NCBI RefSeq assembly: GCF_019649055.1
Contig: NW_026570272.1
Location: forward strand, 868,001 to 932,000
Direction: 5' to 3'
Origin: Paramacrobiotus metropolitanus
Taxonomy: Eukaryota; Tardigrada; Eutardigrada; Parachela; Macrobiotidae
DNA: 64,000 nucleotides
Shown: positions 21,421-48,569 of the stretch, piece after piece
Position numbering within the stretch: the stretch's first letter is position 1
How the letters are laid out: each line of letters starts with the position of its first letter
Program-made: the position numbers and the translations under genes
The notes under the pieces: generated by a model
Told to the model about the DNA's origin: nothing
The model's database searches: none
The model's input: the letters and a program-made list of their open reading frames with translations, nothing else

Positions 21421-21424
21421 CACA

Positions 21425-24747: not shown

Positions 24748-24898
24748 TGACGTATGGGAGTAGGATCATACGCCGGAGTACGTACGGATGCTGACTGTCC
24801 GCCTTCCACCTGCAACATAACGGATAATCTAGTCAATCAATGCTGTGATTTGCTGTTCTCTTTTACTAGCGATGTATATGATGTCATAACGCAAAGTC

Positions 24899-24906
24899 TA
24901 TATAAG
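24899..24906 (+). promoter_or_regulatory. LTR TATA box
   Basis: TATATAAG lies in the first third of the LTR (copy at 48147-48154 in the 3' LTR). An initiator-like TCAGTAG follows about 30 bp downstream, so the R region probably begins near 24931. The assignment is inference from spacing. Confidence 0.6.
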
Positions 24907-24912
24907 TTCTTG

Positions 24913-24933
24913 TGATGCCTAATATCGGCATCA
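24913..24933 (+). promoter_or_regulatory. Perfect hairpin near the predicted RNA start
   Basis: A seven-base stem TGATGCC / GGCATCA flanks the loop TAATATC, repeated in the 3' LTR at 48161-48181. Lying just upstream of or at the predicted cap site, it could act in DNA (binding site) or at the 5' end of the RNA. Confidence 0.5.
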
Positions 24934-25321
24934 GTAGTCTGAGATTTACTTCTGAGACTGCTTTCTAATTACGATTTCCTAGCGTTGTGAACTGTGATGA
25001 GAATTGGATAAAGAGACAGCAATACTTGTTCCTTCTGATGTACATGATCGCTCCCGGATTATTGCATAGAATACAGGTTTGCTCGTGACACAATCGTCCT
25101 AGCTCTTGCCGATCCTCACAGGACTCGCGACCGGAAGTTGTGGTTAGCTCGTTCCTGAGGGATTCCTGATCTTCTGTGTTCCTGATTCGTTCGTCTGATT
25201 TCCACCTTAGTTCTTCTGTTACAGTTTGAGAGTACGAGTGCCTACCGATTGAGCATTACAGGCGTGGAAGAGTAAAGATTGTTCATGGAGCCTTAAACGG
25301 CGTGAACGCTTATACACGACA

Positions 25322-25339
25322 TGGCGCCCACCGGTGTCT
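25322..25339 (+). promoter_or_regulatory. Primer-binding site, Lys-tRNA-like
   Basis: TGGCGCCCACCGGTGT begins immediately after the LTR's terminal CA. The first nine bases match the CCA-end complement of animal tRNA-Lys (CTT), whose PBS is typically TGGCGCCCAACGTGGG. The remainder diverges, so the primer may be a variant lysine tRNA of this host. Confidence 0.7.
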
Positions 25340-26055
25340 TTTAATTTTCCCGATGTAACAGAAAATTATTGGTGGAAAGTTTGATAGTAATTTTCGGTAA
25401 TAAATGGTCCGTTTTTGAAAGGCGTCGAACCGCAAAGGTACGCCGAAGGAGGTCAGCGTTCCCGATCTGGCCTAGTTAAATTATTTTCAGCGAGCTTCCT
25501 CGCAGTTGTGAGCTTCCTCACTGGTGAGCTTCCTCGCCAATTAAATTAAATTTAATTAAATTGGACCGTAGGAATAAATAGTCGAAACCTCAAAGGTCGG
25601 CTGTGTAATTTATTGGTGTCTGTGTGGGTAATTTCCGGGTTGTCTGCGCAAAGCAGTAACCGCGGCGAGTAAAGTGTAATCTGCAGTGTCAGTGCACCTG
25701 GCCTGCAGATAGAGCAGACAGTAAGCACCGAGCCATTGTCAGTGGCCAGGTGAGATAACGATCTCCAACAGGCCGCAAGCGGTAGCCAAAATCAGCAGCT
25801 AGAGAGAGTTGACCGTGAAAAGGTAAACACCGGCAAACGGTGATTGACCAAAAGCGCGCAAAGTGCAGCAGTGTGAATTTTTACGTCGAAACCGCAAAGG
25901 TCGGCTGTTATTTAATTATCACGGAACAATTCAAACCTTAAAGGAGGATTGGGAAGTGATTGATTATTGTAATAGCAAAGGTATTTGTCGGAATCAGTAG
26001 CACAATCGTTAAGTATTATTTTAAATAGCCGCAAAGGTTATTTAAAATAAAAGAA
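25340..26055 (+). other. Retroelement leader with internal repeats
   Basis: Untranslated leader. The word GTCGAAACC(G/T)CAAAGGTCGG recurs at about 25581 and 25885, with a shorter form at 25424 and a relic at 26027. GAGCTTCCTC occurs three times in 25492-25537. Such repeats in a leader are candidates for packaging or dimerisation signals, which is inference. Confidence 0.6.
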
Positions 26056-26274
26056 ATGTCGGGCGGTTCGATTCCTAGAAATCGCCCACCACCGCGTAAG
26101 ATCCCAGATAACAAAGTGATTATTGGGGCGTACGATGGATCGAGAGCTCAGACAAGGTTCAAATTCAATGCAAAGGAAATCCGTACATCGCTCTTAATGT
26201 CGAACCACCAGAAGCACAAGATGCATTCTGTGGGAAGTCATGGATTGATTACCAGGAAATCAGGCGGTACTTAA
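26056..26274 (+). CDS. Probable Gag start in a different frame (72 aa)
   Basis: This is the first ATG of the element, opening a basic, proline-rich stretch (MSGGSIPRNRPPPRKIPDNK) and ending at a TAA at 26272. The big Gag-Pol frame is open from 26112 in the -1 frame but has no ATG until about 26724, although its first 200 codons look coding. Either ribosomes shift -1 between 26112 and 26271, or an intron joins the frames (GTAAGA at 26095 is a possible donor), or this copy carries a one-base lesion. I saw no canonical slippery heptamer in the overlap. Confidence 0.5.
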   Translation: MSGGSIPRNRPPPRKIPDNKVIIGAYDGSRAQTRFKFNAKEIRTSLLMSNHQKHKMHSVGSHGLITRKSGGT

Positions 26275-29200
26275 ATTCTAAAACGAGATTACCAGCACAT
26301 TTTAAACCTTGGATTGAGTACGAGGGATGTATCCCTGAAGCTTACCTGGACATTACTGATGAGCAGTTTAAAGCTGCCTTGCAGGATGCAAACAGGTGGC
26401 TGCCAGAATATACGGAAGATTTGAATAGACGCAGAGAGGCGGCTCAAGCTGCACTCACAGCGTCAAAAGCAACTGGAAAAACTCCCAAAAAACAGGCAGC
26501 AAATGAGCGCGTCACGCGCGGCGCCAAGGAGAGAGTTCCAGCTCAGGCATCCGGTGCGATACTGGATGAGCCCATATCGGAAACCCCAAGCGTGGCCGAG
26601 AGTCAGACAGAACCCCAGTCGTCCCAGTCGGACAATAATTTAACAGCGTTGGCGGCTGCGGACAAAGCGGATATCTCCGAAGGATCTGAAACAAGAGCAA
26701 GTAAAAGTATTCGCGGTGGAACGATGACATTCCACCCGGCACAGCTAAAATTACATAGTTTTGTGTCAGAAAAAGATTTTGAGCAACCAGATGAGGACTT
26801 CCTTACCCAAGCTAGGGAAGTTGATGAGCAGTTAGCTGCGGCAGAAACTGACCAGGACGTGGGCTTGATAGTTCGGCAAACTATGCCCGTATTGATCCAA
26901 AGTCTCCGCACGCTCATTGCATCTACAAAAACAAAAGTAGATGAAATGGGTAATACTATGTCTTTAGACGCTCGTGTAGATGCGGAACGAAACGAAAAAT
27001 TGAAATTTCAAAAAGATTTCAATGAAATGCGCATTAAATTTGAAAACGAACAAATAGAAAATGACAGATTGGCCAACGAAATACGCATTGCGAATGATAA
27101 TTTGCACACCTTAAGACAAGCCAACAGAAATGCGGAGGCCGCATTTAACGCAATGCAAGATGAGCGCGATACTTTAAAAGACACGAATCGTAATCTTGAA
27201 AAACAGTTGGAAGATGCCCAGAGAGATCTTTCAAACGCGAAAGCTACGATTGATGGCCTCAGTGCGCAACCGGCACCGGAATTAACGAAACAAATAACTG
27301 ATTTGAACCAAAAGCTCTCGAAAGCTCAGAAAGATTGTAATTCTGAGAAAGATGCGCATAAATTAACTAATAAAAATTTGACGGATGCGCAGAACCTGGT
27401 CACAAAACTTACCAAAGATTTGGAAGATGAAAAGAAACGGGCTAAAGATGCGGAAGACTCTCTACAGCGTGAACTCACACAAGCGAGAGTGCAGCTGAAC
27501 AATAAGTCTTCAGTCGGCCCGATGCATATTCCTAAGGAAAAGGACGATGCGTCCCAAAAGGAAATTGAGAGACTGCAGGGTCTGTTGACTACAGAGCGAG
27601 AGAATGTTCAAAAGGCCCAAAAGGAATTAAAAGATTCGAAAAAGGATAAACGATGCGATAATTGTGAGAACGCGATTCAAGCGAAAAATACAGCACAGGC
27701 CGACGCATATGAAAAGTCTGAAAGGTGTAATCGACTGTATGAAGAAAATGCGCAATGCCGAAAGGAATGGCATGAAAAACAAGATCAACTTACCAAGATG
27801 GAAGTGGATCTAAAGCAGGCATATGACGAACTTCGTCGGCTTCGAAATACAGATGCTGCTCTTGGCGGTGGTGAAGGATACTTTCAAAGGGAAGCGCCGG
27901 TAGCAACAGGAGACGTATTACGTCCTCCCGCTTTTACACCATTTAATCCCCAAAATTTCTCGTCATACGTGGATCAGCCCTTAGCTACTGGTAGTAATCC
28001 AGCTGGCATCTTACGCAGGCCTAGGCAGGAATCACGAGTCGAATTCTCGGAGGGTCAGACCATGCCGCGTTCATCGTCAGAAAGTCAAATTCCAAGGGAA
28101 ACGGCACCTGCCAAACAGAGGAAAAATGGCTCAACAGACTTACGCCAGCAAATTCTGAAAAGAACAGCTGACGAATCTAGTCGCCAGATGCGAGGAACAG
28201 AAAATAGAGACAGTTCTGATACAGAAAATGAACTGATGGACGATGCCCTAATGGATGATGAACACCGTCGCCCCAGTAGCACGACCAGTAATGAGTCCAT
28301 GTCTAGAAATCCTCAGCTGGAGGAATGGCTAAATAAACAGACCCAAATTTCGGATAGAACGACGCTTACACAAGAAAGCGTTGTTGAGCTTTTAGCAAAA
28401 ATTGTGGAAAAAGACAGTGATAAAACAGTAGGAGGCATGAAGCTACTTGCCTTTGATGATGCTCACCCGGAAAAAATTCAAAGGTGGCTCATGAATGTTG
28501 AACAATGTAGAGCCACGAATAACTGGAATGATGAGACAACGTGTCGCAGAGTAATCGGTGCATTCACCGGTCCGTCCTTTCAATGGTTTGAAAAATTCTG
28601 GAAGGACAACAAAGGCAAATCGTGGTCAGATTTCTTTAAGCCGGCGATTGTAGAGCACTTTAACGGCTCTCTTTCCAAAGCCGATATTCGCCGAAAAATG
28701 AATAACCGCAAATTGGAATTTTATGAACCAGTTCGCGCTTACCTGGATAGTTTCCTCCCATGGTTTGAGGAACTAAAAACATCGGATGAAGAGCAGGTGG
28801 AAGCACTCCTTGATGGCGTACAGGAGCATCGACCGGCATGGTTCCGTGAAATTTATAATGCGGCACCTAAAAATTATGCGGAATTTGAGAAGAAGTTACA
28901 GGAATGCGAAAAGTTATGGAAGCGCATGAATAAAGATAAGAAGACACCTGAATCAACTCAGAAAAATGCCCCTTCAGAACCGAGAAGTGCCGGCAATAAT
29001 AATAATAATAATTCGAATTATGAAAATCGAGGCGGCCGTGGCGGTCCGTCTCAGAGAGGAAATTATTATTCGAACCGGGGAGGCCGTGGAAATTACGGCA
29101 ATAATCGAGGTGGATACTCCCGCTCGTACACGGAAACGGTGATTCCGCAGCCGCAGAATACGGTGGCTCCAATCCAACCCGTCCTGAATGTTCCCCAGCC

Positions 29201-32200
29201 GCAATTTGTTCCAGTTCCGGTGTATTCACAGCCACCATTTGCTGAACAGCACCCGGTACAATTTGCGCAGACCTTCCCTCAACCAATTCCTATGCAGGCT
29301 CCTATGCCTGTCCCAGTTCAAATGATGAATCCAATGATGCCGGTTATGCAGCCTCAATTCCAACAACCGGTGCAGAATTTCGATCAGCAGTACCAACAGA
29401 ATGGCCCTGCGAATAATAACAATAATTACGATGGCGGTAATAATCGTGGAAATTACCGAAATAATAATAATAATTACCGCGGACGAGGTGGTTACAACAA
29501 CAATAATAATCGACAGCAAAATAACCAGAATTACCGGCAAAATCAGCAGGCTGGTAGTCAACCTCCCTTTGATGAACGAAATATCCTAAAGGATAAATGG
29601 CGAACAAATCGCGGAGTCGAGATTTGTTTCCGCTGTCATGGTCTTCATCCCGCTGCAGGTTGTACGAATCAGTTTGTACTTCCCCGACAGTATGAACCGT
29701 CTGCAGAATTGTTGGCACGCTACAATAACCCGCAGCAGCAAATTAATATGATGGAGTTGGACTTACCGGCCGGTTTGTCCACATCGCCGCCACAGTGCAA
29801 TAAAATGGAAGTACAGGATTTTTCGCAATATCCGTTGGCGGATCATGTGTGTTTATTACCGACGCTTGATGCTCAGGCTTGGTACTCTGTAATTGATATA
29901 AATTATCAGAAAGTGAAGACCATGCTGGATACGGGCTCTAGTATTTCAGTTATGTCATTAAAAATGGCGAAAGATTTGAAATTAAATATTCATCGTTGCC
30001 CGGATCACATTAAAGGCAGGGTTGTACATACAGCTTACCAAGGGAGACAGCTGATTGAGCCGTTGTCGGTAGTGGTCACCATCCACGAATTTGGGATGGC
30101 TTTCGAGCACGCAGTGCTTGTGAGTTCCACTTTTGATAGGGACCACGTGGTTTTAGGTTTAGACTTTTTAGCTACAAAGCCTTTTATTCTGGATATGAAC
30201 ACTATGACGTGGCGTCTCTCGCGTAGACAGCCTAATGCACCGGCATTCTTCCGTCGTGAAACTCACCTGATGTCGGACGTCATTAGGTCACACGATTTTG
30301 ATTCGTTAATTCCTGTGGGAGTTAAGCCGTCTCCCGCGATTCCTGCATTGATGTTAACTGAGCGCATTGGTGTCGCTAAGGAAGCAAAATTCGTACCGTA
30401 TGAGTCAGCCCATTTAATTCTGGCAAAAGCTGACCCAGAAATTTGTATCTTGCACCTACAAAAAGCGAAGCAGGAGTGGCCGCGTCCAGTCGCAACGCCA
30501 CCAGTGACAAAAGCGGTTGATGTCCCGGTGAAAACGGAAATTAAAGAAACTACACCAGTTCACGTAGCTCCGATTAAAAAGGGATCTGATCAGCGTGATG
30601 AGGAGTTTGTGCGTAGTGTAGTACAGGAGATGATTCGCCAATATCTCCCTAGAGCAGCTTCCGTCGCGGATGAACCTGTTCGTCCTGCAATTAAACAAGA
30701 GATTAAGGTAGAGAAAAACCCAGAACCAAGTCAAGTTCGTGGGGGAGGCGGTGAAACAATTGTAAATAGTATGCAGTCTAGTTCGCGGGGGAGAGAACAG
30801 GCGTCTTCCCAGCCGCCAATTAAAAAGGAAAAAATTGTTCAGCCATCTCCGGCAAGCAGCTCAAGTACCCCGTCTTCGGCATCGGTCAGTCCTGTGCCTA
30901 ATTCTGGCTCCAGTCAAGTTCGTGGGGGTGTCGATCCCTTGCAACTGCCGATTCAGATCTCGTCGGTGGACGCAGTATTAAAGCAGCATCCTGCAGCAAA
31001 ATATCTCTACATGGGTGTCATGGAAAAGTCCGCAAAGGTGGTCGAATGTCTTAGTATGGATAACAAATTGCTTAATGTTATACCTGTTGAGCGCGATCGC
31101 AGAGATGTTGATGAAGTTCATGACTATCCGTCGTATATGGCACGGAATCCAGAGCTTAAAAAATGGATGACGCCGATGGATAGGCCGCAGGATAAGGGCT
31201 TATTCCCTTCAGAGAAAAGATTCCGTGATCCGCAGTTCTGGCGCGAAACTCAACAGCAATGTGTTGATAGCCGGATGTGGTACAAAATGTACAAGAAACC
31301 GTCGCACGCTAATACGAATTTTACCAAATACGAAATCAACAGGTTTGTGATTTGTGAGGGGATATTGTGCAGGGTACCTGATCATTCTGGTGCATGTCCG
31401 AGAATTTACGTGCCGTATCAATGGCGACAGAAATTAATTGCCTGCTTCCACGAAATTTTAATTCATAAGCAAGCGTATGGCCGGCATGAAAAGCTATATC
31501 CGTACTTGGTGAAATTATTTTACTGGCCGGACTGTATAATAGAAATTGAACGGTACGAGAAGAACTGCGACGTGTGTCGAAACTCGATTAATGATCGCCG
31601 GCATTTTGAAACCCTGAAACGTACTGAACAGTTGGCTGCACAGAAAGCCACAGGAAAACGTAAGGTTACCTTTTCCGTGGACAACCCGGCACCAGCAGGT
31701 GAATTTGTAGATGGTAACTTTGTCCCTGCAGATGGTATGAAACCCATTAACATCGGCCCGTGTCCAGTCTCCTACGAAGATAAACAGGCGGAGAAGCAAA
31801 GAGAAATAAACTCTCAAATCGTGTCTAACTCACCGCAAAACCATAAGTTGATTAGTGAGCAAGTTTCGGAGTTTCTTCCTTCGGCAGTCAGGGCCTCTTA
31901 CGACTCCCCAATAGATGTTGATATCAATGAACAGTGGAGGATTTGGAACGAAATTCATGAGCAAAAAGTATTGAGGGAGACTGTGGCGACTAGTGCAGTA
32001 CAACCTACCGTGGGAAATTACGAACTGCCAACGGAAGGTCCAAGGAATTCTCCTAGGCGTAAAAAGTCCAGTTACAGCCGCAGAATTAGGCGGGAATATG
32101 CAGAAAGAGAGGCGGCAAGCCAAATGTCAGCTGAGACGGTGCAGCCAGCACCGGTACCACAACAACCGGCGGCTAAAAATTTGCCCAAACGATCTCAGGA

Positions 32201-35200
32201 CGTTCGTGAGTCCACTGATATCCCGGCATGCGTGTATTCGAAGGATGTCATCGAGCTGGCGTACAGGGACGCCCATCTGAAACAGGCACAAGCACAGGTT
32301 GAGCTTAATTCGGTAGAACATGATATTTACCGCTTTGAGCCAGAACCCGGTCCAATTGACTGTTTCAAAATGGAGCTGTTTCCAGCTTCGCCGGTTATAA
32401 TTCAGCCCCATTCCCAGGGAATTATTCGCGCAACGACGTTGATGTCTGACGAACAGTTCATGGAATTTCAAGACGAATACCTGTACACCCAGCCATTTCT
32501 CTACGAAGGAAAAATACCAGAGTCAAATAAAAACGCCGTATTACTCGATGGCGTCTTAACGCTAAATGAGTATGGTAATTGCCGAGTCTGCGTTGTTAAC
32601 GTGTCTGACAAACCGCTCGTTTTGAATGAAGAAACCAACCTTGGCGAAGTCGCGCTTGTGGACGCAGTGTACCAAATGGACTCTCCGGAGTTCCAGGAGA
32701 ATTGTCAAGAGGCAATTGGTGGCATTCCCAGTGTGGAAGAAGGTGTCTTGACACCGGAGAAAATAAATGAATGCGTGGCTATGCAGTTGCCGCCGCCCGC
32801 CGTTAGTGTCGTTGATCCTGAAACCGAAGAAACGTTCGCTAAAATCAAAGTTGGTGATATCTGTCCCAGCAAGGATGAATTAAAAGCAATCTTTTATCAA
32901 GCGAAATCAGTTTTACCGACTAAGGCGCGTCCTGTGGGTTGTTGTACCATATATGAGCACTCTGTGGATACAGGCACGAGTTTGCCGGTCAGAACTCCTC
33001 CGTATCGCACATCGTTTGAAGACCGCAAATGGCTCCAGGCTAAAACACAGGAAATGATTAAAGACGGTATAATTGAGCCAACAAATTCGGCATGGGGCAG
33101 TCCCATCTGCATAGTGAAGAAGAAGGATAAATCCCGGCGTTTAACCGTGGATTTCCGTAAGCTTAACGAAAGATTAATGGGCAGCAGTTACCCGCTTCCC
33201 AGAGTTGACGATATATTAAATGCCCTCGATAAAGCTACGGTTTTTAGCAAAATTGATTTAAAGAGTGGCTTTTGGCAAATAAAAATAAAACCGGAAGACC
33301 GGTGTAAAACAACAATGGTTGGCGAAGAGTTCACGTTTCAATACAAAGTCTTACCTTTTGGAATGAAGGACGCGCCTTCGGCTTTCCAGCGCGCCATGGA
33401 TTTGACGCTTGCGAACATGAAGTGGAGGAACGTGTTGGTTTTTATTGATGACATTATTGTCTTCAGTAAAAACCTGGCTGATCATATGCGAGACTTACAG
33501 GAGCTCTTTTTGCGGCTCCAGGAATGCGGCTGGACCATTAATCCTGAAAAGACAGAATTATTTGTAAATTCAATAACGTTCCTGGGTCACACGGTTGACC
33601 AGTTCGGTATCAGTACTGATCCAGAGAAGATCCAGGCGGTTAAGGAATTCGGTCCTATTAAAGACAAAAAAGATATACTGCGTTTCCTAGGTATGGTAGG
33701 ATATTATCGTCAATTTATTAAGAATTTTCAAGAGATCGCTGAGCCGCTTCAAAAGTTGATTCCTAAAAAAGTTACCTTTGAATGGGGAACAGATCAGTGT
33801 AGGTCTGTGGAACAATTGAAGGAGGCCTTGGTGACGGCGCCGGTCTTGGCCCGCTATGACCCGGAGGCTTTGTCGCGAGTTATCGTTGATGCCAGTACTA
33901 TTGCTGTGGGTGCAGTTCTTATGCAATGTCCCAAGGATAAACCGACGGATGTGCCAACAAACTGGCGTCCTATTGCGTATCTAAGCCGCAAGTTGACTGA
34001 AACACAGAAAAGACTGTATTTCCCTACTGAGCTTGAAGCTTACGCGGTTATCTGCGCTTTAAAGAAGTGGAAGCATTATTTGTCTGACTATCAGTTCGAA
34101 GTACAAACGGATCATCAAGCATTAGTGTTTTTAAATAATATGCGCGATGCCGCTGGCCGCCTCGGGCGCTGGGCCTTATATATCCAGCAATTCAATACTA
34201 AACCAGTTCACATACCTGGCAAAGAGAACGTAATTGCTGACGCGTTGAGCAGAAATCCAGGAGAGCAACCGGAACCCAATTCTGATGACTCGGATATTGA
34301 GTTCGATTATCGGCAAACTTACCCTTTCGCTGGCGATGCCGCGATGATCGAGTGTTGTTTCGCGATCCTGGAAAGAGATTATGTGGATATCCGCTTTGAG
34401 ATGATGTCGGCCGAAGTTAAAGCCATTCCAGAGGAAGACATGAAAGCCTTTGATGAGGATAAGGTGCAGAAGTTAATTACTGACGATAAGGCTTCATATT
34501 GGGCTGAAGAGCAGTCTCGCGATGCGCGAATTGTCCGATGGCGGTTGCTCCTAGAAAATAAAAAGGAAAAGATGTCAGACCACGAGAAATTACATTTAAA
34601 CAAATTTGTTGTGAAACAGGGCGTTGTTTATTATAAGTTTGAATTAAACCGGAAGATCTATTACTGTATGTATGTACCTGTTCACTGGCGGCTTCAGTTC
34701 CTTCAGGATAACCATGATTCCCCGTTAGCAGCACACTTGGGCGTTCTGGCCACCTATAAAAGGATGTACAAGTATTTTTATTGGCCCCGTATGTTCGATT
34801 CTGTTAAAAGCTACTGTGCCTCTTGCCCGGCGTGCCTTGCACAAAATCCTCTTGCTACGGCACCGGCCGGTGCTCTCCAGTCCAATCCCACCGTTCCTCC
34901 TCGGTTAGTTTGGGCAATCGACGTTGCTCCGGCTCTTCCAACGACGGAATCTGGAAACAAAAACATAATTATTGCAGTAGATTACGGGAGCAAATATATA
35001 GTCGCGGAGGCAGTTGAGAGAAATGATGCTGCCACATCGGCGTTGTTCTTTTATCGCCGCATACTGACAGTCTTTGGCATGCCTGTACACATCACCTCTG
35101 ACCGCGGCAGTAATTTCATGTCTGAGATGTTTCGGGAGCTTCTCGCTCTCGCGGGTGTTGCTCACGCACCGACGGCGTCAGGCCACCAGCAGGGTAATGG

Positions 35201-37006: not shown

Positions 37007-37855
37007 ATGCATCGCCCCAAAGTACCGTCGCATCATTCCTTTCAGCATGAGGATACTACGAGTTCCTCGGAAGATTCGGTGCAGGTTTTGGCAGATGTCT
37101 TGGCCGATGTTCAGCCGCCAATGTATCCCGATCCTCATGTTGGATGGCCTGAACCAACGTTTGAATGGTCCCATCTCATGGTGGATTGTGGCCTTCGTCC
37201 GTCTCCGTATGACTATGCTCGTGGAGGAAAGAGTTATATTCCCCCGTCTGGTTTGATCATCAATCGTCCCTACAATCCGGACAGAGATTATGTGGAGTTG
37301 CATCCAGAGACTCGGTTGCGCTTCCGCGGCAAGATCTTTCATAATGGTTCGCAGATGACGGTGGACAAATATAACCGTTTTGTCCACACTCTGGATCTGT
37401 CAAAGGACGCACACTATGCATTGTTACGTTACCTGCGAGTGGACTTCCGCCAAGGATGGCTCATTGGGCAAATCGTCTGCGAACTCCGTCGGAACTACGG
37501 CATCAATGTGGTGCGTAACCCCATTGAGTTCCTTACTGCATTGGATTATGTTCCAGGAGAAACGGGAGACCATGGTGCCGTTGTCACGCTCGTGGACGCG
37601 TATAATCAGCATATCGAGGAATTGGTTTCCAATATTGATGAGGATCACCGTTTGGAAGCGGAGCAGCGCTATTTCGAGCGTTTGAATGCAGCGGATCCGC
37701 GGTCGGCAGCTCAACATCAGCAGCAATTGCTACAGACTCGTTGGCTGTTGCATGAAGGACAGGAGAAGCGCGGTCCTGGTAAACTGGATGCTTCGATTGC
37801 CAAGCGCCATCGTCCACGCCGCGATGATGACGATGATATGGGCGCTGCGGTGTAA
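37007..37855 (+). CDS. Cargo ORF 1 of the retroelement, 282 aa, unknown
   Basis: ATG to stop, intronless, same strand as pol. The N-terminus is Ser/Glu/Asp-rich. The middle is globular-looking (FEWSHLMVDCGLRPSPYDYA, LIGQIVCELRRNYGINVV), and the C-terminus combines a basic cluster KRHRPRR with DDDDD, suggesting nuclear targeting. The segment around CELRRNYGINVVRNPIEFL is faintly like ALELRRQYLYLHPVFVGLF in the 509-aa cargo protein, so the two may be distant relatives. I recognise no family. It shows no signal peptide or membrane helix and is not envelope-like. Confidence 0.75.
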   Translation: MHRPKVPSHHSFQHEDTTSSSEDSVQVLADVLADVQPPMYPDPHVGWPEPTFEWSHLMVDCGLRPSPYDYARGGKSYIPPSGLIINRPYNPDRDYVELHPETRLRFRGKIFHNGSQMTVDKYNRFVHTLDLSKDAHYALLRYLRVDFRQGWLIGQIVCELRRNYGINVVRNPIEFLTALDYVPGETGDHGAVVTLVDAYNQHIEELVSNIDEDHRLEAEQRYFERLNAADPRSAAQHQQQLLQTRWLLHEGQEKRGPGKLDASIAKRHRPRRDDDDDMGAAV

Positions 37856-38441
37856 TGAGGATTTCCCCTGCAATCACAGCCCTGTTGTAGTGCTCTCTTA
37901 CTTAGCCTCTGTATTTTTCGTTTTACGGAAGAACATTACCTTCAGTGTTGGGCATGTTATTCTAAGTTTATTGAATTCTGTACAGAACCTGTTTTCCGTT
38001 TACAATTAGATCTTTAACGTTATTTTTACAGCCTGTGCAAGGTGCAGCTATTCTACGAAATGGCTTACCATTCGTTCTCTGGAACGTAGATTTGGCTGTT
38101 CAGCAATAAATCGGTTCAAATCGGACTTCTCCGGTTGTTTAAAATCAGAATGTGGCAGATAATCTGACGGAAAACGATTTAACATACAAAATGACAGTTT
38201 AAAATGCAAGTCTTCACGTTTGAACATGTAAACAATTTTGTCACTGTAGCAACCGCCCGTGTGTCGTTAAATGTTAGGGCAGTGGCAGTCACATAGTCCG
38301 CAGCTGCTTCCGGTCTGCACAGCTGCGGTGTGTCAGCGGTTTTCCTGTTCACTCTTGCCTTTTACATTTTTAGCTGCAGCTTTTAAATTTTACAGACTTT
38401 GTCGTCATTTCTTCTGGTTTAAATCTCTGCTCTTTCATACT
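37856..38441 (+). other. Spacer between cargo ORFs 1 and 2
   Basis: AT-rich, no gene. It ends with GGTTTAAATCTCTGCTCTTT (38416-38435) just before the ORF 2 ATG. Similar words occur at 39303 and 44105, so this may be a shared internal regulatory or UTR motif. Confidence 0.4.
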
Positions 38442-39233
38442 ATGGAGATGGAATTTTATAAATCAGAGCGCGGGCGTATGATTTGTGCCGAGCAAGATGA
38501 GCAAAAGCGCCGTAAGTTTGTGAAATTTTCTGACTCTGTTGCTTATGTTCTGGCGAACCAGGAACACATTTTTGAGTTTGTGCACTTGTGGCGTTCGCTT
38601 GATGCTCCGTACATTCCTATCAGAGAACTGTGCAGACTCTCTAACTCGGAAATCATGGCTTTGAATTTTGTAGAACCCGAGCCACTGGATTTCGAGGCTC
38701 AGGTGGCTCTGGAGATTGAGAACATCCGCAAGTCGGAGTCACAGATGTATTACTTAACGATCGGGTTTATTCTGTATCCCGACACTCCAGTCCGACGTGA
38801 AGCATCTGAACGCCTGCGGAAGGAATTTGGCTTGCCATCCCTATTTAACCCGCCGGAAACTTTGCGTGAGCGTCATCAGCGCATGCTAGAACACAACAAG
38901 CGAGTGATAGAAGAAGAGCTTTGTTGTGTCGACTGCGAGAATAATGGCCCAGGCTCATGTGGTCGTATTCTGTACACCTTGGATGATGATGAGCCTGTTC
39001 CAAATATCTGGGGATCTGGCAATCTCGAGGACTGGAAGGAGCCAGACTTAGACGTGGATGACTGGTGGGCGGAGAACAAGCTGGATTTTAAGGATCCGAC
39101 GGAATTCTTGCCTGCGGATATGCTGTGGGTGGATGAAGATTTCGGCCCTGACCCTACGCCCAAGAAGAAGCGCAAGCACGTCGTAGTGCAGCGCCATGTT
39201 CTCCGTGGCATTCCCCACACCTACTGGAAGTGA
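38442..39233 (+). CDS. Cargo ORF 2 of the retroelement, 263 aa, nuclear-targeted unknown
   Basis: I chose the ATG at 38442 (MEMEFYKSERGR). An in-frame ATG at 38271 would add 57 hydrophobic, Cys-rich residues that look like untranslated sequence. The protein is acidic, with many Trp/Asp pairs near the C-terminus (DWKEPDLDVDDWW), a Cys cluster CCVDCENNGPGSC that could bind metal, and a textbook monopartite nuclear signal PKKKRKH near the end. Intronless and complete. No family is recognised. Nuclear import or tethering of the pre-integration complex is a possible role, by inference only. Confidence 0.75.
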   Translation: MEMEFYKSERGRMICAEQDEQKRRKFVKFSDSVAYVLANQEHIFEFVHLWRSLDAPYIPIRELCRLSNSEIMALNFVEPEPLDFEAQVALEIENIRKSESQMYYLTIGFILYPDTPVRREASERLRKEFGLPSLFNPPETLRERHQRMLEHNKRVIEEELCCVDCENNGPGSCGRILYTLDDDEPVPNIWGSGNLEDWKEPDLDVDDWWAENKLDFKDPTEFLPADMLWVDEDFGPDPTPKKKRKHVVVQRHVLRGIPHTYWK

Positions 39234-39879: not shown

Positions 39880-40062
39880 ATGACTCCTCCGGCTTCGGAG
39901 AAGAAGAAAGCGGCCAAGCAGGCGCTGGAGAATCGTGTTACGGCATGGACGGAGATAGTCGCTCAGAAGATGGCTGAACGCACGGAAGCCCAGCAACGTT
40001 TTGAGCGTAGCAGAATTGCCGTCAAGGAGGCTGTATCCAAGCTCCCCCCTAAGATTTCTTGA
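39880..40062 (+). CDS. Cargo ORF 3 of the retroelement, 60 aa, short basic coiled coil
   Basis: The small frame starts MTPPASEKKKAAKQALE, continues as an uninterrupted amphipathic helix rich in Ala, Glu, Gln and Arg, and ends KLPPKIS. The start (M-S/T-P-P-A then lysines) echoes that of the 509-aa cargo protein (MSPPAKKPT). A possible polyadenylation signal AATAAA follows at 40400-40405. The short length keeps confidence moderate. Confidence 0.5.
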   Translation: MTPPASEKKKAAKQALENRVTAWTEIVAQKMAERTEAQQRFERSRIAVKEAVSKLPPKIS

Positions 40063-40405: not shown

Positions 40406-40515
40406 GCAAGAGTAGTTACCGTCCCTGCTGTCTGTTGGTAACTTTTGGACAATGTAATGCATAACCGCACGAGGATACACTTTCGTTAGGATGCTGCTCC
40501 TGGTCTAAATAGGAT

Positions 40516-42110
40516 CTTGTGTAGAGCGACCCCGCTAGTATAGTAGAGGCTTCCGTTGCTTCGTCATTGGAGGTCGGAGGTTCCAGTCTACATAAAAACC
40601 CGATTTTGTAAATATCTTCATTTTTGGTTTTTATTTTATGAATCGTTATATTTTTATTCATGGGACTTAATATGCGAAATATTGGGTGAATCACCGTTGA
40701 GAGGCGTCGATACGAGTATTAACACCGTAAGCAGTGTTTTTAGTGCTATTTTTGCCGATGACTCTTGTAGTCGACCGGTTAAGCTGTGAGGACAATACCA
40801 GGCGAATCCGTTTTCCTACTGCTGGCCCTGGGTTCAAATCCATTAAAAATTAAAAAGCATTTTCATAAACCTTCTTTTTTGCGTTTTATATTGTTAAAAT
40901 AGCATCAAATGTGCATTGCCGTTGACCGCTGTAATTTTACAATCATTTCCGATGAGCGAATTCAAAAATAACTGTCGTAGAACAGCGTAGTATAGTGCTT
41001 TGCACCGTTGAACTGCAGCAAGGGGGAAATGAAACGGTTGCGGGTTCAAGTCCCTTACAGCTAATTTGCAATTTTCATAAACTTACTTTTTTCGTTTTAT
41101 ATTTCTGTTTTCGTCTTGGGAAAAGTGCTGTCAATGGTCCTCAGAATGTCAGAATTAAACTCAGAGAGCTGGGCGTAAAATTGTATACACACTCAATGGT
41201 TAACAGTGCACTTGGCCGTATGTTTGTTTGTATTCGAATGACTTTGTAGTTCAGTGGCTATGAATGATGGCCATTCGCCTCATGTTTTACCTCCTAAACG
41301 GCTAGTCTTAATCTCAGGGTTGCATGCTGCATGTTGAAAACTACATTTTTCCAGCCCTATATTTTTGTACCATCGTGGGATGAAGAGTTAATCGTTTGGT
41401 GCCTTATTGCAGTAGGGTTAAATATACACGACATGGCGCTTCCGGTGTTAATTCTAATTCGGCTTTAGCGTAGAGCACCTTGTGGCGTAGTGGCTTGACT
41501 GAGAATCCATACCGACCCGCTTCTTGCAAGTCTAGAGTTCCAATCCCTAAAAGTTAATCCCTTTAATTTAAAACCTTCTTTTTCGGTTTTATATTTTTAA
41601 ATTTATATGCAGTATTATGTTGGCTTTGAGGTGGGTAATTTTATGATCTTTTCCGAGGAGCGAAGTTGAAGTTTAACTCCGCAGACTGTAGTGGCGTAGT
41701 GCACTGAACTGTTGAACCACAACAACAGGTGCAATGAAGGTTGCGGGTTCGAAACCCCTTGAAATTAAAATTGCATTTTCTAACATCCTACTTTTTTTTT
41801 GTTTTTATATCTTTGTTGGCACTCTCGTGGAAATATTCCCGCAGCCGGCACGAATTTTGCGCTCATTATGATGGTGAAATCTTAAATTTATCAGCTAGTA
41901 CGGTGGTGAATCCTCCTTCTATTGTGAATTTTCGTAGTACAGCGCCTTTGGTGATTGCCAAAATAAAAGTAAAATGTGGTATAGCCATGCTAGCGTATGG
42001 GCAAGAGCAGGATATGGTTGTCCACCTAGATGCAAGGTTCAATCCTGCGTGAATACAAATTTTGCAAGTGTTAACAGTTTCTCACCATCCTTTTTACCTT
42101 TTCTTGATGA
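40516..42110 (+). repeat. Tandem array of about seven tRNA-like (A-box/B-box) units
   Basis: B-box-like words recur at 40579 (GGTTCCAGTC), 40831 (GGTTCAAATCC), 41043 (GGTTCAAGTCC), about 41315 (GGGTTGCATGC, weak), 41536 (AGTTCCAATCC), 41746 (GGTTCGAAACC) and 42036 (GGTTCAATCC), spaced 210-290 bp. Upstream of most lies an A-box-like word of TRGCNNAGTGG type at 35-60 bp (TGGCGTAGTGG at 41482, TGGCGTAGTGC at 41692, TAGTTCAGTGG at about 41246, TAGTATAGTGC at about 40988). Most units end in a T-rich tail like CATAAACCTTCTTTTT then CGTTTTATATT, containing runs of T suited to Pol III termination. The units are divergent, so duplication was not recent. None folds cleanly into a cloverleaf by eye. They are best described as tRNA-derived, SINE-like units in sense orientation. 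Confidence 0.6.
41375..41460 (+). repeat. Decayed LTR end plus primer-binding site inside the array
   Basis: TATACACGACATGGCGC (41423-41439) is a 17-base exact match to the 5' LTR/PBS junction (25311-25327). The preceding 50 bp align with the LTR tail (CGTGG..AAGAG..GCCTTA) and the following bases with the leader (CCGGTGT). This is a remnant of a related, older element trapped between tRNA-like units 4 and 5. Confidence 0.75.
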
Positions 42111-42483: not shown

Positions 42484-43854
42484 TTAATCCAGATCCAAAT
42501 TCTCCTTTGCAGTTTTCAAGTTTGCGAGGCGCTGTTCCAAAGCCTCACGGATATACGTGATATGTTTAGCATCCACAGTTGCTCGAGCCTTCAGCGTGTT
42601 TACCAGCGCCTTGCAGTTATCCATAATATCCTTCTCTCGTTCAACTTGTTCTAGTAATTTGTCGATTGCGTCGGGCTTTTTAATAGCATCCGGTTTTGCA
42701 GTGCTCGCTTCATTGTCAGGCTTTTCGGCCTTCTCCTTGGTCTTCTGGCCTTTCTTTTCGGTATCCGTACTTTTCGACCGGGGAACATATTTAGGACGGC
42801 CGCCCATAGCTTTCAGCTGTGTGAGCGTGATAATTGGTTCTCGCTCAATGCGTCCGTCTTTGCTAGCCCGGATTACCAGATTTACGTTGGTGGTGTTGTT
42901 CTTCTCGGGCTCGATTGCGTCCAGCCGCTCCATGATGCCATCGACAACCAGATTCCCGTCTTGTCCCACGTAACCGAAGCTACAATCGGCGAAGTGTTGT
43001 GCTGTGTCTTTTCCGTTGACTGTCACCTTCATAGTGCCCATTTTGATATCTGCACAATAAATCATTCTATTAAATTACGCAACGCAAATGATTTGCAGTA
43101 TATAGCGCTGTTATGCTCTTTTAAAATGTAAACATTGAGAATGCCGTTTTGAAAAACACAAACACTTACTGATGGTCTGGGCCAGAGTGGTGCAGAGACA
43201 GCAGCCGCGAATGCTTCGTAGCCACAGGTCGATGCAACTGTCCACGAAAAGATTCCCGTAGACGACGACGACATGTTTTTGGTTGACCAGCTGGCGCAGC
43301 CCGCGCTCCAGCCAGTAGTCCACGTCCTGTAGTTGCACGTCGAATGTACAGATCCAGTGTTGGATTTCGGTGCGTGACATGGCATATCGGCCGTGGTAGA
43401 GGATTACGCGAATCATCCGACGAAACTTGCTAGTTGTGTCGATTACCTTCGTCTCTTGATCGCGGTTATTTTTCACCTCCTCGGCCACCTCGAGCACGAA
43501 ACGTCCATCGCGGCTCATCTTCTTGAGCAAGATACCAGCATTAATAGCGTCGCCAAGGAAGAAATCCACTCGTTCTTCCGTGAAGTCGTCATGCATTTCT
43601 ACAACGAATTTCTTGATAGATGACATGTCCACGTAATATCCCGTAATGTCAGCTTCAAGAATGCACGCGTGGGCTGCCGTATGCATCGCCAATTGTCGAC
43701 GGTCTCGGATGGTTTCGTTTGGCTGTAGAGGCTCCGCCATGGCAAACTGAACTGATTCGCGAGTTCGTCCCTTCCAGTACTCATAGTGGGCAATCGCATC
43801 CGTTTCAGCCGAAGGTAACGGCTCTCCAGCTGGTCCTACAGGCTCTCCCGACAT
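42484..43854 (-). CDS. Antisense cargo gene of the retroelement, two exons, 416 aa
   Basis: On the strand opposite to pol. Exon 1 (43854-43170) starts at MSGEPVGPAGE. It contains a helix-rich region (FRRMIRVILYHGRYAMSRTE, then DVDYWLERGLRQLVNQKHVVV) that could be a winged-helix fold, and ends phase 1 at ATCA|GTAAGTG. The intron (43169-43050, 120 bp) has consensus GTAAGTG and TTGTGCAG. Exon 2 (43049-42484) restores the frame, encodes a beta-like segment (KVTVNGKDTAQHF, NLVVDGIMERLDAIEPE), a Lys/Glu-rich linker and a C-terminal coiled coil. The spliced length, 1,251 nt, is exactly 417 codons. No family is recognised. The intron survives because the sense genomic RNA cannot splice it. An upstream ATG (43887) would add 11 hydrophobic residues. 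Confidence 0.75.
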
Positions 43855-44461: not shown

Positions 44462-45991
44462 ATGTCGCCTCCTGCTAAGAAGCCAACCGCGCGAAAGACT
44501 GCGTCACGTACACCGCGCCAGAGTCGTGCAACTGCGGGACTGAGTTTTGGTTATTCTCCGGACAGCGATGAAGCCCGTTCTTCATCGCGTGTCACTCGAT
44601 CTCGAGTCTCTCGCCGTACCGCCGCCCAACCAGTGTTTTCTGCGCAATCTTCTGGGTCATCGGGATCGGTGAGTGCAGCAGAGGCTCAGCAACCTCCAAC
44701 GAGTTGGGCAGACGCGATAGTTCATGCTTTGCAGCGCCGATATGATGCTCAGCGGCGACGAACAATTTTGCGACGCAATGCTGCTGTGGTTCGCCGCCAG
44801 GCTCGAAGAGGATTATTCCCTGCTAGCCCTGACGTTGAGATCCGTCAGCCATCACCGAAGAAACCGCAGACGCAGGCGGAGAGACAGCTGGGAACTCCAG
44901 ACTTGACAGAAGAAGAGCCATCGTCTTTCGAGACTCCGTCTGTAAAAGCAAAGCGAGGTATTGTGCCGTGTTTGCCGTTGTTGTGGTTGTTATGGAGTCG
45001 CTCGTTGTTCACCTGGTTGCCTTACGCACACGTTGCTTCTGGGAAAGCCCTGGTATTCAATTGCTTGATATTCGCTTTCTGTGTTGTTGCTTTCAGCTTT
45101 CTCGCGACTGGTGTTGCAGCTGTTACGATCAATTTAAGCCTAGGCTTATGGCTATTTTTGCTGTATTTAGATGAGGATCATTTGCGTAAAGGTGGCATCC
45201 TCTATGTACCGTATAACCCGGATGCCCCGCGGCCGGTCTTCAAGACCAAGCAGACGGCTCGCAAACGAGCACATTCCGGAGTGTTTCCAAGAATGGCTAT
45301 TGCGGACAAGCAGGGTGAGATGGCAATTACAAAAGCCTATTTCTCCGGTTTAAATCGCTTTCATCCTCGCTTCCCGGAATTGTATTTGTCTCACTTTTTA
45401 TACCAAAACGGAGTATTAATCAATCGTTACGATTTGTGTGTGGCTACTCGGAAATTACCTTCGTTAATTGCGTTAGAGCTGCGTCGTCAATATCTCTATT
45501 TACATCCTGTTTTTGTTGGATTGTTTAAAGAAATCGCCAATCGTCAGCAGCGTGATGCTGTGGCTCGCCAAGTGATTGTTGACGCTGCTGCTGTGGATAA
45601 TGCTGAACCGCAGGCTGCAACTTCTGCTGGACCATATAATTTTCGCAATCGTGGGCAAAAGCGCAAGTACAAGGAGGTTTCACCGTCCTCGTCTTCGGCG
45701 CCAAGCGAGGTATCTGTCTCGGATGATGGGGAAGATCGTGAGGATCCTTCGGCCGTGTTATCCCCTGAGCAGAATGCTAATGTCGAAGCTGACGAGAATG
45801 TTGATATGGAAGTTGATTGTCAGAACGACGATGGATCCGATCTGGACAAAATGGATGTTGATCCGCTGCCTTTTATGCAGCCGGTTGTTCCAGCTGTGCC
45901 ACCTGTTGCTGCAGTCGCTCGCGAGGATTCACCTGAAATTGCGGAACCGACGGTTTATGCTCAGCAGCAGCCGCATTCTGATGAATTGTGA
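44462..45991 (+). CDS. Cargo ORF 5 of the retroelement, 509 aa, basic N-terminus and two membrane helices
   Basis: It starts at MSPPAKKPTARKTASRTPRQ. The first 170 residues are basic, Ser/Arg-rich and disordered. Two hydrophobic stretches follow (about residues 168-190 and 198-236, including LIFAFCVVAFSFLATGVAAV). Next is a globular region (ITKAYFSGLNRFHPRFPELY, LIALELRRQYLYLHPVF), then a nuclear-signal-like GQKRKYKE and a very acidic tail ending SDEL. The frame is continuous. A GT..AG pair (about 44958 to 45119) would delete the first hydrophobic block in frame, so splicing cannot be excluded. It has no signal peptide and no envelope-like features that I recognise. A nuclear-membrane protein is one possibility. 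Confidence 0.7.
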   Translation: MSPPAKKPTARKTASRTPRQSRATAGLSFGYSPDSDEARSSSRVTRSRVSRRTAAQPVFSAQSSGSSGSVSAAEAQQPPTSWADAIVHALQRRYDAQRRRTILRRNAAVVRRQARRGLFPASPDVEIRQPSPKKPQTQAERQLGTPDLTEEEPSSFETPSVKAKRGIVPCLPLLWLLWSRSLFTWLPYAHVASGKALVFNCLIFAFCVVAFSFLATGVAAVTINLSLGLWLFLLYLDEDHLRKGGILYVPYNPDAPRPVFKTKQTARKRAHSGVFPRMAIADKQGEMAITKAYFSGLNRFHPRFPELYLSHFLYQNGVLINRYDLCVATRKLPSLIALELRRQYLYLHPVFVGLFKEIANRQQRDAVARQVIVDAAAVDNAEPQAATSAGPYNFRNRGQKRKYKEVSPSSSSAPSEVSVSDDGEDREDPSAVLSPEQNANVEADENVDMEVDCQNDDGSDLDKMDVDPLPFMQPVVPAVPPVAAVAREDSPEIAEPTVYAQQQPHSDEL

Positions 45992-46544
45992 GTTTTCCAT
46001 TACTGATTTGTTATCCTTCATGCTGTACATTTTTGCCAGAATTTGATGATCTGTCATTTCGTTTTTGATCTTAATTTGCGTATTAGCTGGCCAAACTTTG
46101 TGATTTGTTTTTGATCGGTAGCCTTCATTGTACAATTTAAAGCATTTTGCGTTTATTTTCATCCAATTTTTATTTTTCAATTTTACGCGCTCTGAGTCAT
46201 TGAACTGGTCGTTTAATATTTTTTCCGCTGTGCCGTGGCTATCAGTGTTAAATCTCTCATTGTACCTGGATAGATCTGATCTTTGATTACGTTGCATTAA
46301 AAGGATATAGCGCGAAGCGCTGATTGGCTGTTTTTCTACCTGTATGGAATCTTCCGCACTTTAAAAATTCGCTCCAGCAGACGGGTATAAAATCACTTGC
46401 GCGTAGTGTGCAGAAATCGGCATTGTGGATTTTTCGTTTCGGCACCAGTGGTGTATTAGATTCCTTGCTTTTCTGAATGTGATTTTGACGCTTTTCTCTC
46501 TTTACTTTTAGCGTTAAAAGGTCACTAGTTTTCATTAGTTGGGC
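45992..46544 (+). other. Spacer between cargo ORFs 5 and 6
   Basis: No gene. GGGTATAAAATCAC at about 46383-46396 is a good TATA-like element about 150 bp before the next ATG and could be an internal promoter. Confidence 0.45.
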
Positions 46545-47339
46545 ATGCCGCCTATTGATCCTAACCGAGCTTTTGATAAGCTGGTTGACGCTATTTTTCA
46601 TTCATCCTCCAACCAGCAACAACAGTATAATGCCGGTTATAATCACCGAGGAAGGGGTGGAGCCCGTGGTGCTTACCGTGGCAACTTTCGTCCGTACGGC
46701 CGAGGAAATCATAGGAATTTTGGAGACAATAACTTGCGTCGTGGAAACGATCATTGGCGTCGTAATGGCCGACCTCTGGGCGCACCGGAAGTTATTGAAG
46801 TACTTGATGGAGACGCTCACCCAGTTGCTCCAGTGGAAGCTGCCGCCGCAAACATGGAGGTTGACGACCCGGGCAACCAAGCAGCGAATGCACCGAATCC
46901 GGTCCAAGGCAACGGAAATGTGGCTGCAGGTGAGCCCAATGGTGTCAACCCTGCTGTCAATCTACATGGCCCACCAGCCTTGAATGCCGTTGTCGTTCCT
47001 CCGGCTGTCATTCCACCTGTGCAGCAGCAAGCCCCGCAGAACGCTGAATTTCCCGGTTTGCCACCAAACGTGTTGCCACTTCCTGAAGTGCCGATTGTCC
47101 GCGATGCCCGCGACCGTTCTCCAGCTGATCGCCCACGTGCGCCGTCTGCACCTTCCGGTCCTGTTGGTTCTGCTGAGCATAATTTTGTGCCTGGCTATTT
47201 GGCTCAACAGCAGCAGCGGGAATTGGATGCCGATCGCCGACGACAGATGGCTGCTGACGTTTCTCGCCGTTTGGATGCTGCTGCGTCTGGCTCTGGTATC
47301 ACCGGTTTGTTTTCATTGGCTCCCAGTGCTGGCAAGTAA
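46545..47339 (+). CDS. Cargo ORF 6 of the retroelement, 264 aa, RG-rich probable RNA-binding protein
   Basis: It starts at MPPIDPNRAFDKLVDAIF, a short helical head, followed by an Arg/Gly/Asn-rich region (HRGRGGARGAYRGNFRPYGR) typical of RGG-box RNA binding. A long Pro/Ala/Val-rich disordered linker and a short C-terminal helix (ELDADRRRQMAADVSRRL) come next. The RG/N composition resembles the disordered part of this element's Gag (28990-29120), so it may have arisen from a gag fragment. Intronless. AATAAA follows at 47685-47690. Confidence 0.7.
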   Translation: MPPIDPNRAFDKLVDAIFHSSSNQQQQYNAGYNHRGRGGARGAYRGNFRPYGRGNHRNFGDNNLRRGNDHWRRNGRPLGAPEVIEVLDGDAHPVAPVEAAAANMEVDDPGNQAANAPNPVQGNGNVAAGEPNGVNPAVNLHGPPALNAVVVPPAVIPPVQQQAPQNAEFPGLPPNVLPLPEVPIVRDARDRSPADRPRAPSAPSGPVGSAEHNFVPGYLAQQQQRELDADRRRQMAADVSRRLDAAASGSGITGLFSLAPSAGK

Positions 47340-47995
47340 CCTTGACTCACCTTTGTCCTTGATCTTTTGCTTTCTTTGATCTCGCCTTTTTACTGGCCTG
47401 GTGTTGTCTAATGATTTTGCTTTACCAAAGCCGTGTTGATCTTATTGCTACTGATATTCTTTTGCTGGTTTAAAATTTGCTCTCATCTACCAGTAATTTG
47501 TGCTCATGATTTTTATGCGGATATTTTTGCTTGTTTGTTGTTGTTGACCGTTGTTACTGGATGATGTAGTACTCGAGAATTCGTAAGAATACTACTGGTT
47601 GTTGGTTATCGCGGTCCCGTTCGTTTAATGCATAGTTCTACAGAATTCCACATAATCACATTTTAAGATTTTAGTTTCACAATTAATAAAGCTTTATGCC
47701 GTATACTGTACATAAACACCATCTAAACTCAAGCGGCACCATGTCAGTAATTCATAGTTCACCTTCCTGGATCCTTGGACCTCCGCCCTGCCAAACCCGT
47801 GGACTTCCGGATGCCTCTTCGCCAAGGATTCCACACTAACTCTCTGGAATCGCGGCGTACAGTCACATTGGGCATCGGATGGACGCGTGGATTGTGCGGT
47901 GGATCGGGATCAGGATGGATAGAGGTGCACAATCGCACTGGGATGTTGCGGGATGGATTGTTTACTTTGGCGCGGCCAAGCATCGTTCGTGGGGG
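47340..47995 (+). other. 3' untranslated region of the retroelement
   Basis: No gene. It contains AATAAA (47685-47690) and a stretch dense in GGAT words (47870-47960) before the polypurine site. Confidence 0.5.
47985..47995 (+). promoter_or_regulatory. Polypurine tract (plus-strand primer)
   Basis: GTTCGTGGGGG lies directly before the 3' LTR's TG. The purine run is unusually short (five G), and the upstream bases recur twice inside pol. Confidence 0.6.
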
Positions 47996-48569
47996 TGACG
48001 TATGGGAGTAGGATCATACGCCGGAGTACGTACGGATGCTGACTGTCCGCCTTCCACCTGCAACATAACGGATAATCTAGTCAATCAATGCTGTGATTTG
48101 CTGTTCTCTTTTACTAGCGATGTATATGATGTCATAACGCAAAGTCTATATAAGTTCTTGTGATGCCTAATATCGGCATCAGTAGTCTGAGATTTACTTC
48201 TGAGACTGCTTTCTAATTACGATTTCCTAGCGTTGTGAACTGTGATGAGAATTGGATAAAGAGACAGCAATACTTGTTCCTTCTGATGTACATGATCGCT
48301 CCCGGATTATTGCATAGAATACAGGTTTGCTCGTGACACAATCGTCCTAGCTCTTGCCGATCCTCACAGGACTCGCGACCGGAAGTTGTGGTTAGCTCGT
48401 TCCTGAGGGATTCCTGATCTTCTGTGTTCCTGATTCGTTCGTCTGATTTCCACCTTAGTTCTTCTGTTACAGTTTGAGAGTACGAGTGCCTACCGATTGA
48501 GCATTACAGGCGTGGAAGAGTAAAGATTGTTCATGGAGCCTTAAACGGCGTGAACGCTTATACACGACA
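47996..48569 (+). repeat. 3' LTR
   Basis: 574 bp, TG..CA, identical by eye to the 5' LTR, followed by the ATAG duplication. Confidence 0.97.

Follow-up and report, generated by a model that had tools for sequence, protein, structure and literature searches.

A window of 64,000 nucleotides from the tardigrade Paramacrobiotus metropolitanus (contig NW_026570272.1, positions 868,001 to 932,000; features below are numbered from its first letter and lie on the plus strand unless stated otherwise) contains a complete 23.8-kb Ty3/gypsy long terminal repeat (LTR) retrotransposon at 24748-48569. We regard it as probable that this element is a recent copy of a giant Ty3/gypsy family, and that the genes it carries downstream of pol form a selected module whose role resembles that of the regulatory and accessory genes found in complex retroviruses. 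The 5' LTR (24748-25321; 574 bp with TG..CA ends) and the 3' LTR (47996-48569) are identical in 574 of 574 bases, and the insertion is flanked by the target-site duplication ATAG (24744-24747 and 48570-48573). A primer binding site (PBS), TGGCGCCCACCGG, follows the 5' LTR at 25322-25334, and a short polypurine-like tract, GTGGGGG, stands just before the 3' LTR. Together with an open Gag-Pol frame of 3313 amino acids, these features bear out the original prediction, made from the letters of this stretch alone, of a complete and very young giant retrotransposon. The insertion is recent and this copy apparently intact; the identical LTRs and open frames lead us to infer that the element is active.

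The 13 bases of the PBS are complementary to the 3' end that tRNA-like places in the host genome, ending in GGTTCGAGCCCCCCGGTGGGCG, would have after addition of CCA; we take this to be a lysine-type tRNA end. Two of eight pattern matches fit (C2:2944834 and C6:939726); these places are known from the pattern alone. Since a host tRNA end fits, the primer would come from the host rather than from the element. A primer encoded by the element itself was considered and rejected: among the matches listed, the complement of the bases following the 5' LTR matched elsewhere only short A/T-rich words, none of them in the tRNA-like array described below.

Gag-Pol occupies a single open frame at 26724-36665, counted from its ATG; the frame stays open upstream to a TTG at 26379 and measures 3428 amino acids from the first ATG, GTG or TTG start. 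For the Pfam searches it was divided into three consecutive stretches. Its N-terminus is a coiled coil, and the frame also has a Retrotrans_gag match below the cut-off and, by eye, a CCHC-like knuckle. There follow an aspartyl protease domain (29895-30173; gag-asp_proteas, E 4.1e-7), reverse transcriptase (RT) with RNase H (33114-34193; RVT_1, E 3.8e-34, and RT_RNaseH, E 2.8e-31) and the integrase zinc domain and catalytic core (34674-35183; Integrase_H2C2, E 7.3e-22, and rve, E 1.5e-10). This order, protease - RT - RNase H - integrase, is that of Ty3/gypsy elements, and the named proteins among the 120 best hits listed for Pol include K02A2.6-like and Gag3-Pol3 proteins, with identities of 28-42%. 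An extra H2C2 zinc-binding-like module lies between protease and RT (31413-31583; Integrase_H2C2, E 0.0031 and 0.0017, neither reaching the curated cut-off). A partial H2C2-like match, over 22 of the profile's 59 positions, lies at the C-terminus of Pol (36591-36656; E 0.0012, below the cut-off); no counterpart of the latter was found in the Pol tail of the related family 2 stretch L053. Tat/Ogre elements have a second, archaeal-type RNase H in Pol; the sole RNase H reported by Pfam here is the one linked to RT.

On the minus strand, a kinase-like host open reading frame (ORF) at 24309-24818 starts within the 5' LTR. In the absence of the element, the insertion site would lie in or just before the first exon of this ORF, about 30 codons upstream of a possible start, and a start derived from the LTR is possible for this host gene.

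Between pol and the 3' LTR the element carries five sense genes or ORFs, called A, B, a small ORF, D and E, as well as an antisense gene, AS, and an array of tRNA-like units. For an element of this type the layout is unusually rich in genes, and it recurs across the genome. A search of the species' own genome with the LTR, with 40 of 187 candidates scored, gave at least 41 matches, from which 12 same-strand pairs could be formed, spaced 22.7-23.7 kb from start to start (on contigs C52, C37, C123, C54, C14, C122, C38, C16, C78, C128, C156 and C67). Matches to A, B, AS, D, E and RT lie inside all 12 pairs; because it recurs in this way, the element structure is not a product of chance. In the copy on C123 the LTRs agree in 573 of 575 alignment columns, and a CTTG duplication flanks the insertion. 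In several of the other LTR-paired copies genes are split, contain stops (five in the RT of C37) or have diverged (B in C122 and C54 is only 53-55% identical).

All accessory genes are under purifying selection, with ratios of nonsynonymous to synonymous distance (dN/dS; Nei-Gojobori, window copy as reference against the other copies) mostly of 0.02-0.3. Gene A gave 0.03-0.14 at 20 loci of family 1, to which the window copy belongs, and gene E gave 0.04-0.14. The values for gene B, computed in the frame starting at 38442, were 0.08-0.29 at 17 of 19 loci, with 0.55 at L036 and 0.25 at L040 over partial alignments, while the small ORF, of 60 amino acids, gave 0.02-0.15 at nine of 11 other loci (L012 had 0.30 on one synonymous change, and L013 no synonymous change). 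For the two spliced genes the exons were treated separately: AS gave 0.02-0.13 for exon 1 and 0.06-0.14 for exon 2, and D gave 0.07-0.30 and 0.02-0.22, respectively. These comparisons are not independent, since some loci overlap, the same copy having been fetched repeatedly, and the copies share ancestry. Synonymous distances from the window copy are mostly 0.1-0.7, which indicates that the lineages compared are far older than the insertion in the window. The accessory proteins evolve faster than RT, yet they are constrained. In three copies (C23, C171 and C337) the RT pieces have dN of about 0 and dS of 0.10, 0.49 and 0.12, and gene A of the same copies has dS of 0.53, 0.37 and 0.39; at C23 and C337, RT and gene A thus seem to differ in history, an outcome to be expected from template switching, and this suggests recombination between subfamilies.

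Some of these genes were recovered, in diverged form, around other RTs. The best 106 of 1591 candidates in an RT search, those scored, fall into steps of about 96-100, 86-94, 70 and 58-61% identity to the window copy. In family 2, A, AS and E follow one another as in the window copy at nine loci (C13, C72, C94, C80, C9, C11, C248, C38 and C57), with identities to that copy of 35-37% for A (29% at C57), 31-35% for AS and 47-49% for E, and an RT of 86-94% identity lies beside eight of the nine, C57 being the exception. Gene B has no match in family 2, and no homology was detected between it and the ORF at the same place there. In family 3, with RT of about 70% identity, nine places have AS at 29-34% identity and, about 1.5 kb away, a weak match resembling A (E 2e-4 to 9e-4). 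The distance between RT and AS is about 10 kb, as in the window, at C80, C347 and C292; C80 alone of these three belongs to the nine places. In one family-3 stretch, L054, AS is followed by an A/D-like gene and then by an RGG-rich gene, the last placed by its position and composition. Downstream of an RT of 58% identity, L075 (C39:641300-650300) contains a 419-amino-acid ORF without a Pfam match and an RGG ORF that includes a CCHC knuckle, and its gene arrangement possibly marks a fourth giant family with another gene order. Parts of the accessory module thus recur in families with RTs 86-94% and about 70% identical to that of the window copy, while the proteins themselves fall to 29-49% identity.

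It follows that the extra region is very unlikely to be captured host DNA whose passenger genes decay with age. Such an origin is conceivable in general, as ORFs downstream of pol can be captured (PMC6431247). AS, for which a collection of 5.8 billion proteins yielded no homologue, might have come from outside, and many individual copies are indeed broken by stops. The captured-DNA reading is largely refuted by the presence of the genes in 12 of 12 LTR pairs with dN/dS well below 1, as well as by the recurrence of module parts in families whose RTs differ by some 6-14 and 30%; nor was a single-copy host parent identified among the own-genome matches, the surroundings of some weak hits aside. 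The original prediction had staked its case on full-length copies keeping what it called cargo and on purifying selection acting there, and both were found; since parts of it recur across families, 'accessory module' is the better term.

As to the contents of the module, the inventory predicted earlier, five sense ORFs, a spliced antisense gene and a repeat array, proved right, and three details are corrected here: the start of B, the membrane-like middle of D and the nature of the repeat array. Gene A (37007-37855; 282 amino acids) has a basic C-terminal tail, KRHRPRR, in 15 of 18 distinct rows of the alignment; its predicted structure is of poor quality. Gene B (38442-39233; 263 amino acids) has an SV40-like basic motif, PKKKRK, near its C-terminus in 10 of 17 distinct rows, some of which are truncated. 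A start of B at 38271 was rejected because the segment 38271-38441, the first 57 codons of the longer frame, is conserved as DNA but stands in another frame in many copies; it is conserved noncoding DNA upstream of the gene. The small ORF (39880-40062; 60 amino acids) encodes a basic product.

Gene D (44462-45991) would encode 438 codons if spliced, with exon 1 at 44462-44957, an intron at 44958-45170 and exon 2 at 45171-45991. The 213-nt sense intron happens to be open in the window copy, and it is this stretch that had looked like a membrane or envelope domain. That interpretation was rejected: the exon edges, AAAGCGAG/GTA and AG/AYGA, are common to nine other copies (ten loci with the window copy), while the middle has diverged among the nine by substitutions and indels, C37 being nearly identical to the window there, and matches to D are interrupted in many copies between residues of about 170 and 230. 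Exon 2 of D has no direct match to A; both touch the D-like protein of family 3 (92 and 44% probability), and a relationship between the two is possible by this indirect and weak path.

The loss of the membrane-like stretch bears on whether the element might be an infectious provirus of the errantivirus type with an envelope among its accessory ORFs. Complex gene content, a very young insertion and a separate promoter for E would be in keeping with such a provirus, but the stretch in D is an intron, and Pfam reported no envelope or fusion protein match in the seven accessory frames, a search that divergent envelopes could escape and that was made with no dedicated membrane predictor. We consider an infectious provirus hardly probable.

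Gene E (46545-47339; 264 amino acids) encodes an RGG-rich protein of nucleocapsid-like composition, and the CCHC knuckle in the RGG gene of L075 is a hint that E is nucleocapsid-like. Gene E has a TATA box at 46386-46391, 159 bp upstream; in all 11 rows compared, the window copy accounting for two of them, TATAAA stands at -158 to -160 relative to the ATG. Upstream of A, B, D and the small ORF no such box was found, and the only thing like it ahead of AS is TTATAA at -22, in two of 12 rows. A motif, CTGTCAACCGCC, at first noticed by eye, occurs upstream of several genes, with seven matches in the window against 3.1 expected (three of 100 shuffles reach as high) and four of the seven inside the element. 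A k-mer scan of the intergenic parts likewise found more shared words than single-letter shuffles, the top words being mostly A/T-rich. We treat the shared upstream motif as a lead only.

The antisense gene AS (42484-43854, minus strand) has exon 1 at 43854-43170, a GT..AG intron at 43169-43050 and exon 2 at 43049-42484, giving 416 codons if spliced. The intron is present with its GT..AG ends in 12 of 12 loci including the window copy, ten by pattern and two by direct reading. The structure model of AS shows a helix-helix-helix-wing fold, and AS is therefore predicted to be a winged-helix protein. None of the 2406 candidates drawn from the 5.8 billion proteins is a homologue of AS. This absence is weak evidence, since proteins of mobile elements may be missing from that collection, which has a P. 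metropolitanus protein from the same contig and, among the hits listed, no near relative of the element's Pol. A sequence search of solved structures with the AS and A alignments gave no match, and Foldseek gave none at E <= 0.001 in the PDB or in a viral library.

Between the small ORF and the 3' end of AS lies an array of seven tRNA-like units (40520-42100), which are candidate type-2 genes of RNA polymerase III (Pol III), with an A box, a B box and a T-run in this order. The B boxes start at 40579, 40831, 41043, 41318 (degenerate), 41536, 41746 and 42036, so that the units are about 210-290 bp apart, and a run of at least five T follows each. Over 11 copies, all 67 units have such a run no more than 90 nt from the B box, against 41% of random array positions, and in 48 of the units it lies 42-46 nt from the B-box start; an A-box-like word stands 25-75 nt upstream of the B box in 61 of 67 units, against 18% of random positions. 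These figures are descriptive and carry no probability, because the B-box pattern was built from the same units, degenerate ones included, and the copies are related. ARAGORN found no cloverleaf tRNA gene in the array, no known RNA family was found there, and 12 array units fold no better than shuffles.

The units might instead be SINEs or tRNA genes that were inserted and have spread with the element without a function. They do look tRNA-derived, their number varies among copies, and the one unit used for a genome-wide search is missing from C37, one of the 12 LTR-paired copies. Yet all 40 of the matches scored in that search, from 56 candidates, have an AS match no more than about 2.3 kb away, that is, they lie inside copies of the element. 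Moreover, in 20-column windows read off from nine close copies, the unit cores are mostly 92-100% identical and the spacers mostly 74-92%, one core going down to 79% in its A-box part. A similar, diverged row stands in the same place in family 2, where about five array-like units were seen by eye just past the 3' end of AS in L053. On a relaxed scan two of the L053 units pass, and so do four places in L054, where no array is claimed; the strict B-box pattern finds one unit in L053 and none in L054 or L075. An array in family 2 is accordingly likely, not proven, and functionless insertions are an improbable account of the array as a whole.

A second alternative, which we find rather unlikely and still much better placed than the first, is that the array is a TFIIIC-binding boundary which separates the leftward AS unit from the rightward sense genes and is not transcribed. 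Clustered B boxes and tRNA genes can serve as boundaries. The A and B boxes lie in conserved blocks, the units do not fold better than shuffles, and in family 1 the array is placed between the 60-amino-acid ORF and the 3' end of AS, the family-2 row standing beside that end as well. Against this stands the T-run after every one of the 67 units, which is needed for termination and not for a pure boundary; this evidence is suggestive only, since some 41% of random array positions have such a run and the units are interrelated. A cluster of tRNA-like Pol III units is also present in the selfish DNA-virus genome of the gammaherpesvirus MHV68; the resemblance of the array to it is one of layout only, MHV68 being a DNA virus.

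How such an element may work can be sketched on the reading that we favour, that of a giant Ty3/gypsy family with a retrovirus-like accessory module. It would replicate in the usual way of LTR elements, primed by a tRNA and with a single Gag-Pol polyprotein, as its anatomy supports, and Gag-Pol would be translated from the LTR-driven genomic RNA. AS, transcribed from an antisense promoter, may bind the element's DNA and tune the transcription or chromatin of the element itself, while E, the RGG protein with its own promoter, may help to coat and package the 24-kb RNA. A, B and D would act in the nucleus. D would be expressed by splicing, and the retention of its sense intron would mean either that genomic RNA escapes splicing and is exported or that D has a transcript of its own. 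The array could give short Pol III RNAs, recruit TFIIIC to form a boundary that parts the antisense AS unit from the sense genes, or do both. More tentatively, and with somewhat less than even confidence, we propose that the whole amounts to an expression layout like that of a DNA virus: an LTR-driven genomic RNA, subgenomic RNA polymerase II units on both strands that have introns and promoters of their own, and, both encoded by the element itself, a DNA-binding regulator and a cluster of Pol III RNAs, the whole held by selection across families that split long ago.

The surroundings of the element contain other repeats and two receptor-type ORFs. An inverted repeat at 9262-10270, with arms of 165 and 130 nt that are 95-96% complementary, encloses a 42-bp minisatellite of about ten copies and is foldback-like; another inverted-repeat pair lies at 1605-2204 (arms of 177 and 80 nt, 86-91% complementary), and a 320-bp unit stands in two tandem copies, 98% alike, at 20777-21421. 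The plus-strand ORF at 19358-20464 matches Trehalose_recp at E 1.4e-5, which passes the curated cut-off, and a receptor ORF at 55090-55752 matches a P. metropolitanus protein at 100% over 71% of its length.

Giant animal Ty3 elements with accessory ORFs are already known, as are plant elements with antisense DNA-binding ORFs. In view of the former, the earlier contrast, that no animal element with this cargo set was known to have been described, was too strong. The planarian Burro is a Ty3/gypsy element of more than 30 kb with a long internal region, a 4873-residue polyprotein, accessory ORFs and many copies, and in these general respects it resembles the present element. As far as the parts of that account consulted go, its accessory domains (BIR, ankyrin, MATH, BCL2, dUTPase and env-like) lie mostly inside the polyprotein, and Pol III units are unmentioned (PMC6431247). 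In the tardigrade element, by contrast, the accessory genes are separate, lie on both strands and include two with introns, and neither Gag-Pol nor the accessory frames gave a Pfam match to BIR, MATH, BCL2-like, ankyrin or other Burro domains; the genes of Burro are different ones. The plant Ogre/Tat elements are likewise giant, with LTRs of 1.9-6.5 kb and one or two extra ORFs (PMC6431247). They share with our element the size and the extra ORFs of unknown function, but owe much of that size to their long LTRs, whereas ours are of 574 bp.

A striking parallel is the Retand lineage of plant Ty3/gypsy elements, in which 2.9-6.6 kb separate pol from the 3' LTR; this region has an antisense ORF with probable DNA binding (TRP28) and, in about half of the elements, tandem repeats (PMC11963269). 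Here too an antisense gene with a predicted DNA-binding fold lies between pol and the 3' LTR. The tardigrade element differs in being from an animal, in its region of about 11 kb, in the intron of its predicted winged-helix AS and in several added sense genes. Extra ORFs in both sense and antisense are known from plant elements more generally (PMC7264820).

Among invertebrates, Cer1 of Caenorhabditis elegans has a spliced gene, CERV, whose nuclear protein is needed for export of the unspliced genomic RNA. The consulted part of that paper describes one such accessory gene and mentions neither an antisense gene nor an array (PMC10309623). An invertebrate LTR element with a spliced accessory nuclear protein offers, by analogy, a possible model for A, B or D. 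The LTR elements of bdelloid rotifers also have extra ORFs, namely ORF3 types encoding env, a GDSL esterase or a DEDDy exonuclease, shared between unrelated retroelements (PMC5408684); unlike these, the tardigrade accessory frames have no Pfam match to any of the three. A curation paper on tardigrades mentions Gypsy elements, and the words 'giant' and 'Paramacrobiotus' are missing from its main text as far as this was seen (PMC11071193). The literature searched, whose coverage left many subscription journals outside, yielded no description of this set of genes and none of an LTR element with a Pol III-type array within it.

The element shows that an animal LTR retrotransposon can evolve and keep a multi-gene accessory program, in parallel to complex retroviruses and to the plant Retand, and it suggests that LTR retrotransposons can include a Pol III-type array permanently. 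Since one tardigrade has three or more families with many copies, accessory roles, the export of unspliced RNA and element-encoded small RNAs would be testable outside vertebrate retroviruses.

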